Positions 3,656 to 42,858 of a stretch of 64,000 nucleotides of DNA are shown one piece after another; within the stretch, counting starts at the first letter, position 1, and each line of letters starts with the position of its first letter. The notes beneath the pieces are model-generated. The model worked only from the letters and a program-made list of their open reading frames with translations, was not told the DNA's origin and searched no databases. Position numbers and translations under genes: made by a program. Source of the stretch: Candidatus Planktophila sp. GTDB lineage: Bacteria; Actinomycetota; Actinomycetes; Nanopelagicales; Nanopelagicaceae. The stretch spans positions 27,012 to 91,011 of the forward strand of contig JAIOWZ010000002.1 in assembly GCA_021741905.1 (NCBI GenBank). The letters are read 5' to 3'.

Positions 3656-4837
3656 CTAAATTCTGACTAGTTCGCGATTGGTACCTGGGGGAGGAAATAC
3701 CGAAAGGGTAATCACCCTGATTCCATCCCCAGTGAACAGTTCAATGGAGGATTGGTCTACAACAACCTTTAGATGCAACGTATCTGAATCAACTTCATAC
3801 GGTGCTTCGAATTGATCAATGAAAACAACTTTTGTGTCGGCGTTATAACCAACTTCAACAAATCCTTGCCAACCAACAACACCTGTATATGGCATTGGCG
3901 ATTTAATTTCATAGGTTAGTGAACACAATGGTTGTTGAGTAACAAAGATTTCATCGCCGTATACAGCTAATCCTAATTCTCGCGGAATAGTCATCGCATT
4001 TGTCCATGATGTTTCCGGATGTTCTTTAATAAATTCCCAATTGGCCATCCAGCCAATAAGAATTCTTTTTCCATTTGGTTCATTATTGAAAGTTACGCCG
4101 GCGTAATTATCTTTTCCATAATCTAACCAACGAGGTTCATCGGTTGAATACATGGGAGTAAATATTGTTCCGTCAAAATCTCCAATGAAGTATTGAGTTC
4201 CTGATCCATACAAACCTCCTGGATTGAGTGAGACCAATAAAATCCAGTACTCCTTGCCCTCTAAGGTTAATGGAAATAGATCAGGGCACTCCCATACGCC
4301 ACCAATAGCTGCTGCTGGTCCGAAGTCACTTAAGTGTTGCCAGGTAATTAAATCTAGGGATTTGTAGAAAGAGACTTTGTGATCCCAAGGTTGGACAGCA
4401 CACATAATCCAGTGATCTTCATACTTAAATACTTTTGGATCTCTAAAATCTTTTTTGTTTTCATCAAGAACAGGATTATTGTCATACTTCACAAAGGTCC
4501 GGCCGTTGTCAGTGCTACGTGCAATGCATTGTGATTGATTTGTTTCTGTGTGTCGTGTGTAAAACGCGACTATCTCATCACCGATGCTGACTGCGCTTCC
4601 GGAAAATATTGCACCGTCATCACTTTCGGCAATTGCTACAGGTAACTCTTCCCACTGTATTAAGTCTTGGCTTACCGCATGGCCCCAGGACATATGTTTC
4701 CACTGTGTTCCAAAAGGGTTGTGTTGAAAAAATAGGTGGTACTCACCCTTATGCCACACCAAGCCATTGGGATCATTCATCCAATTTTTCGCAGGGGTGA
4801 AGTGCAAGCGTGGGCGATACTCACGGTCTAGTGACAC
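3656..4837 (-). CDS. Glycoside hydrolase family 32 (beta-fructosidase / sucrose hydrolase-like), predicted cytoplasmic
   Basis: RPRLHFTPAKNWMNDPNGLVWHKGEYHLFFQHNPFG, FRDPKVF and WECPDLFPL motifs. GTG at 4837 (VSLDREYRPRLHF) preferred because TATGCT lies 6 nt upstream; an ATG at 4867 is the alternative. No signal peptide. Confidence 0.88.
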   Translation of the reverse strand: MSLDREYRPRLHFTPAKNWMNDPNGLVWHKGEYHLFFQHNPFGTQWKHMSWGHAVSQDLIQWEELPVAIAESDDGAIFSGSAVSIGDEIVAFYTRHTETNQSQCIARSTDNGRTFVKYDNNPVLDENKKDFRDPKVFKYEDHWIMCAVQPWDHKVSFYKSLDLITWQHLSDFGPAAAIGGVWECPDLFPLTLEGKEYWILLVSLNPGGLYGSGTQYFIGDFDGTIFTPMYSTDEPRWLDYGKDNYAGVTFNNEPNGKRILIGWMANWEFIKEHPETSWTNAMTIPRELGLAVYGDEIFVTQQPLCSLTYEIKSPMPYTGVVGWQGFVEVGYNADTKVVFIDQFEAPYEVDSDTLHLKVVVDQSSIELFTGDGIRVITLSVFPPPGTNRELVRI

Positions 4838-4843
4838 GGCGGA

Positions 4844-4858
4844 AGCATAGGCTAGCCT
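4844..4858. promoter_or_regulatory. Back-to-back divergent -10 elements: TATGCT (minus, 4849-4844) for GH32 and TAGCCT (plus, 4853-4858) for dedA
   Basis: TANNNT hexamers 6 nt (GTG 4837, minus) and 7 nt (ATG 4866, plus) from the start codons. Confidence 0.55.
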
Positions 4859-4865
4859 GCGCGAC

Positions 4866-5504
4866 ATGAACCTCTTTGATGCCAATTCAATCGTTGGTGA
4901 TCTGGGCCTAGCCGGAGTTCTGGCCATCATCTTCGCCGAAACTGGTCTGCTAGTCGGTCTAGCTTTCCCAGGTGACTCCTTGCTCTTCATTGCAGGAGTT
5001 GCTGCATCAGGTTCAGGTACTGCAATTTTGGGTAACGCCTCTTTAGACCCAGTTTTATTATTTGTGCTTTCACCATTTGCCGCGATTTTTGGAAGTGTAG
5101 TTGGCTACTGGTTTGGTGAAAAATATGGCAAGAAGTTATTTGATAAACCAGATGGAAGAATCTTTAATCATCAAAAGGTTGTTGCCACAGAAAAATGGCT
5201 CACTAAATACGGAATTGGTAAAGCGCTTGTTTTAGCTCGCTTTGTTCCATTTGTTCGCACACTGATTAATCCGATGTGCGGAATTATTGGTGTTCCAAAG
5301 AAAACTTTTATGATCTGGAATACGGTCGGAGCCTTAATATGGACGCAAGGCGTTATCGGTTTGGGATTTATTCTAGGCGATGTTCTAGAAGGTTCAGTTG
5401 ATAAGTACCTGTTGCCAGTTATTGGACTTATCGTTTTTGTAAGTCTTGTTCCAGTACTTTTTGAACTTTTTAGAGAGTGGCAATCAAAGCGCTTTAAAAA
5501 CTAA
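4866..5504 (+). CDS. DedA family membrane protein
   Basis: 212 aa; FAETGLLVGLAFPGDSLLFIAG and ARFVPFVRTLINPMCGI motifs typical of DedA/SNARE-associated family. Confidence 0.9.
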   Translation: MNLFDANSIVGDLGLAGVLAIIFAETGLLVGLAFPGDSLLFIAGVAASGSGTAILGNASLDPVLLFVLSPFAAIFGSVVGYWFGEKYGKKLFDKPDGRIFNHQKVVATEKWLTKYGIGKALVLARFVPFVRTLINPMCGIIGVPKKTFMIWNTVGALIWTQGVIGLGFILGDVLEGSVDKYLLPVIGLIVFVSLVPVLFELFREWQSKRFKN

Positions 5505-6038: not shown

Positions 6039-6082
6039 GCTTTAACCTTACCGCGATGGTCAAACATCTCTACATTATGGGG

Positions 6083-42826: not shown

Positions 42827-42834
42827 AATAAGTA

Positions 42835-42852
42835 AGGTTAAAGCACTACCCT
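42835..42852. promoter_or_regulatory. Divergent -10 elements TAACCT (minus, 42840-42835) and TACCCT (plus, 42847-42852)
   Basis: Spacing 8 nt to GTG 42826 (minus) and 6 nt to ATG 42859 (plus). Confidence 0.55.
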
Positions 42853-42858
42853 TGCTTC

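Follow-up and report, generated by a model that had tools for sequence, protein, structure and literature searches.

Organization of the GH32/dedA Locus

The window, which is the whole 64,000-nucleotide stretch of Candidatus Planktophila sp. DNA analyzed here, is part of a 1.25-Mb draft genome. It contains two divergent genes which encode a GH32 beta-fructosidase and a DedA/VTT-domain membrane protein (Table 1). The GH32 protein contains the motifs NWMNDPNG, FRDP, and WECPD and matches the Pfam families PF00251 (E=1.5e-94) and PF08244 (E=9e-9). Its gene adjoins a sugar-type ABC transporter cassette. Orthologues of dedA were found in most of the same-genus genomes searched, and their starts align.

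A sequence-only reading of the locus had described the region between the two genes as a bidirectional promoter. The gap is indeed 28 bp long (4838-4865), bounded by the GTG of GH32 on the minus strand (4837-4835) and the ATG of dedA on the plus strand (4866-4868). The two hexamers named in that reading, TATGCT on the minus strand and TAGCCT on the plus strand, were both found at the positions given for them, and they are separated by 3 bp (4850-4852).

Table 1. Coordinates of the genes and sequence elements at the GH32/dedA locus, numbered from the first letter of the window.
Feature	Position	Strand	Remarks
GH32 beta-fructosidase CDS	3656..4837	-	GTG 4837 start; 393 aa
Candidate dedA -35 GTGACA	4831..4836	+	5/6 match to TTGACA; 16-bp spacer; within GH32 codons 1-3
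GH32 -10 element TATGCT	4844..4849	-	6 nt before GTG 4837; predicted start site, G of GTG
Alternative minus -10 TAGCCT	4849..4854	-	TA in common with the dedA -10; 11 nt before GTG
Perfect 10-bp palindrome AGGCTAGCCT	4849..4858	both	Two TA-sharing -10-like hexamers
dedA -10 element TAGCCT	4853..4858	+	7 nt before ATG 4866; predicted start site, A of ATG
Alternative upstream GH32 ATG	4865..4867	-	Overlaps the dedA ATG (CATG); judged not to be the real start
DedA/VTT-domain membrane protein CDS	4866..5504	+	212 aa; Pfam PF09335 (E=3.1e-19)

Predicted Leaderless -10 Elements in the Gap

Both genes have a TANNNT hexamer 6-7 nt ahead of the start codon (6 for GH32 and 7 for dedA). In Actinobacteria, leaderless genes are marked by a TANNNT whose first T lies about 12 bp before the start, and on average they make up 19% of the genes (PMC3160421). 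No Shine-Dalgarno sequence was found ahead of either start, where GCGCGAC precedes dedA and TCCGCC precedes GTG 4837. From the sequence we infer both the start sites and leaderless translation. Taken together, the gap is probably a compact divergent promoter in which two leaderless cores of the sigma-70 type are combined. A literature search found no paper on leaderless genes in Nanopelagicales. The fixed 6/7-nt distance from hexamer to start codon, the palindrome, and the CATG overlap of the alternative ATG had all been overlooked in the sequence-only reading.

With a spacer of 16-18 bp, each -35 region would fall inside the opposite gene, as had been anticipated. This placement would cost little, because the -35 region is nearly free of signal across 287 leaderless promoters of this genus, in which the sole feature is a weak T at position -23 counted from the -10. 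Given these 287 promoters, the candidate GTGACA (Table 1) was not relied on as a -35 constraint. Scanning with a generic sigma-70 model of E. coli detected no promoter, a result that is uninformative because the boxes conform to TANNNT alone and have poor -35s, in a genus nearly without a -35.

Start Codon of GH32

The layout depends on where GH32 begins. The sequence-only reading had allowed for a homologue-supported start at ATG 4867, but homologues in L134, L135, L136, and L137 support GTG 4837. In the further GH32/dedA pairs described below as type B, the GH32 start codon is ATG in some loci and GTG in others at a single position, which is the behavior expected of a real start. ATG 4867 itself was rejected as the start: L136 has no start codon there, conservation is lowest in the intervening residues, and the homologues begin at or near GTG 4837.

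If GH32 did begin at ATG 4867, it would overlap dedA by 2 bases, its promoter would lie within dedA, and the gap would be the promoter of dedA only. The frame is open up to an in-frame ATG, and an AGAGG lies upstream on the minus strand. However, the AGAGG is just ~3 nt from the ATG and derives from conserved dedA codons. Moreover, L136 lacks this start, no part of the gap varies more than the would-be N-terminus, and in the other GH32 group the start lies close to where GTG 4837 is. A start at ATG 4867 is thus highly improbable.

Conservation in Related Genomes

Among dedA orthologues of the same genus, nearly all have a TANNNT 6-8 nt before the start, whatever the upstream neighbor. Close GH32/dedA pairs (type-A loci) comprise that of the window (L133), L134 and L033 (the latter an Actinomycetota MAG), L135, and L136. 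Both boxes are kept in these loci, with substitutions at N positions alone (TAGCCT/TAACCT and TATGCT/TATGAT), and TATGNT is found in L134/L033, L135, and L136. In four type-A loci the fixed TA and T positions are unchanged and the 7 spacer bases that separate TAGCCT from the start of dedA are all variable. A further homologue, L137, encodes a GH32 that is 72% identical and has TATGCT-N6-GTG, and no dedA was found beside it. Therefore the minus box belongs to GH32.

Type B consists of 20 further GH32/dedA pairs whose GH32 is 44-48% identical and whose core is ACCTTAYCCT. In this core a minus TAAGGT and a plus TATCCT or TACCCT share TA, and the distance from box to start codon is 7 nt for GH32 and 6-7 nt for dedA. 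In L138-L140, GH32 and dedA are ~170-190 bp apart, and therefore the compact form is not obligatory. No evidence was found for a functional link between GH32 and DedA, as the neighbors of dedA differ in many genomes and GH32 is also present without it.

A second dedA-pyrE-DUF1800 block was found in the same draft genome (L002, G000:C1:1055-1299 region), in which a gene for an MFS-like transporter replaces GH32 upstream. It shares 78.5% DNA identity with the block in the window over 1754 aligned positions. The bin probably includes another species or strain, from which the second block comes, and therefore one of these two contigs may be foreign to it.

Frequency of the Double-Box Layout

Chance occurrence was examined with all divergent start-codon pairs having gaps of 18-40 bp anywhere in the window. 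A TANNNT 6-7 nt before both starts was found in 1 of 1629 such pairs (0.06%), and this one is the GH32/dedA gap. The corresponding rate for a related genome, over 800 kb, was 0.14%, a count in which real promoters are included.

At predicted starts of related genomes, which come from a simple and crude coding-score gene finder, the hexamer is concentrated at the same distances. In 400 kb of the complete genome G014, offsets 6 and 7 account for 52+23 = 75 of 391 starts, against about 4 for each other offset. Both boxes were present in 14 of 25 divergent gaps of at most 40 bp (800 kb of G014 and 400 kb of G061) when starts were chosen without a promoter bonus; choosing them with a -10 bonus gave 25 of 34, which is an inflated count. 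Position-permuted decoys scored without the bonus yielded 0-1 double-box gaps per genome, except for A...TT (3 and 1), which a one-base shift brings into partial overlap with TANNNT. The double-box layout is not special to GH32/dedA, since it recurs at many divergent pairs of related genomes.

Several further features of these promoters were observed. In two related genomes, the -10s of leaderless promoters have a TAGRCT-like consensus and are accompanied by hardly any -35 signal, and the compact divergent promoters (L113-L132, L163-L202) have discrete box spacings, of which -2 is favored, followed by +1 and -7. In the window, a second compact divergent gap of 32 bp (42827-42858) has leaderless-type boxes on both sides, with TAACCT at 8 nt from the minus start and TACCCT at 6 nt from the plus start. 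Adjoining dedA, a divergent pyrE-like/DUF1800-like pair is separated by 44 bp (6039-6082) with the leaderless-type boxes TAAGGT and TACATT.

The Palindrome and the Choice of Minus Box

The palindrome AGGCTAGCCT offers a second minus-strand hexamer, TAGCCT, which shares key bases with the plus TAGCCT; the TATGCT/TAGCCT pair does not. The predicted start sites would be 29 bp apart with TATGCT and ~23-25 bp apart with the alternative box. It is possible, though on balance unlikely, that the gap is a true bidirectional promoter with a symmetrical -10, in which the minus TAGCCT (4854-4849) works, GH32 has a leader of ~3-5 nt, and TATGCT is secondary. The perfect palindrome is consistent with this arrangement, as are the TA-sharing ACCTTAYCCT of the 20 type-B loci, the box spacing of -2, which is the most frequent in the compact pairs of relatives (8/25), and the predicted start distance of about 23-25 bp, which agrees with a documented optimum (PMC12825309). 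However, a start 6-7 nt from the minus TAGCCT would fall on a C, whereas TATGCT places it on the G of GTG. Moreover, L137 retains TATGCT without the minus TAGCCT.

AGGCTARCCT is found at the position of the palindrome in L134, L135, and L136. In type-A loci, the block that extends from the start of GH32 through TAGCCT (4838-4858) is conserved in 18 of 21 columns, which is beyond what the two TANNNT boxes need, and an additional constraint, from an operator or on the spacer, is possible. The palindrome could accordingly be read as a repressor operator for the sugar gene, the minus TANNNT match within it being incidental. The high conservation of the entire block from GTG to TAGCCT and the neighboring ABC transporter cassette would fit an operator. 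In the 20 type-B loci, however, the palindrome is absent and just the two overlapping TANNNT boxes are retained, and dedA retains its TANNNT beside unrelated neighbors. An operator in place of a minus-strand promoter box is therefore improbable.

Proposed Mechanism and Polymerase Exclusion

The preferred reading remains that of two abutting leaderless cores, TATGCT and TAGCCT. A divergent promoter built from these two hexamers, as first proposed, is well supported as a prediction by spacing, conservation, and genome-wide statistics. The established parts of the explanation are its geometry, its conservation, and the enrichment over decoys. In the proposed mechanism, RNA polymerase with the main sigma factor would bind in one orientation and melt TAGCCT, so that the dedA mRNA would begin at or next to the ATG. 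In the opposite orientation TATGCT, or the overlapping minus TAGCCT, would be melted, and the GH32 mRNA would begin on GTG 4837 or adjacent to it. Neither mRNA would need a Shine-Dalgarno sequence for its translation, and only one polymerase would occupy the site at any time.

The geometry, with predicted starts ~29 bp apart, implies steric exclusion, in agreement with the earlier claim that two polymerases could not be bound simultaneously. The step from there to mutually exclusive transcription does not follow. Bidirectional promoters of E. coli bind polymerase exclusively, but none of the five tested (5/5) displayed basal competition. Their basal activity is too low for competition, and the divergent RNA is repressed only under strong activation in one direction (PMC12825309). 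Since the E. coli promoters compete only when strongly activated, exclusion at the level of the population or cell is a conditional prediction here. At low ordinary activity both genes would probably be transcribed independently, with interference expected only if one side were strongly induced. If GH32 were induced by sugar, as the adjoining ABC-transporter genes may hint, dedA expression could fall on induction.

Comparison With Known Promoters and Significance

The GH32/dedA gap is predicted to be a conserved, leaderless divergent promoter of an already-known kind, and the pair is ordinary within its own lineage. It would represent a minimal promoter serving two genes, with practically no untranslated sequence. 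Such a unit accounts for the packing of divergent genes 18-40 bp apart in such small genomes. The loci with a shared -10, an abutting -10, and a wide gap form a conserved natural set for testing when polymerase competition matters. It is doubtful that these streamlined freshwater-type Actinobacteria use leaderless bidirectional promoters as a general means of compaction and that GH32/dedA is, in addition, a selected switch in which sugar induction lowers DedA.

Two known promoter classes come together in the unit, the leaderless TANNNT promoters and the bidirectional promoters. Like the leaderless genes of Actinobacteria (PMC3160421), including those of mycobacteria (PMC3898074, PMC4633059), both genes have a TANNNT about 12 bp upstream, no Shine-Dalgarno sequence, and an ATG or GTG start. 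The difference is that here two such units, known from sequence, stand back to back and fill the whole intergenic gap.

Bidirectional promoters are defined by divergent start sites 7-25 bp apart (PMC10268837). The gap resembles those with a symmetrical -10 (Warman, Grainger; PMC12825309, PMC10268837) in that the starts would be tens of base pairs apart and the -10s of opposite strands overlap or abut. Exclusive polymerase binding, predicted here, would be a further likeness. The type-B relatives are similar to symmetrical -10 promoters, with a TA common to both -10s and predicted starts 24-25 bp apart. In contrast, the best -10 pair of the window is 3 bp apart and its predicted starts are separated by 29 bp, just beyond the 7-25 bp range, whereas use of the alternative minus TAGCCT would give ~24 bp, within that range. 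Both transcripts of the window, unlike those of symmetrical -10 promoters, are predicted to be leaderless.
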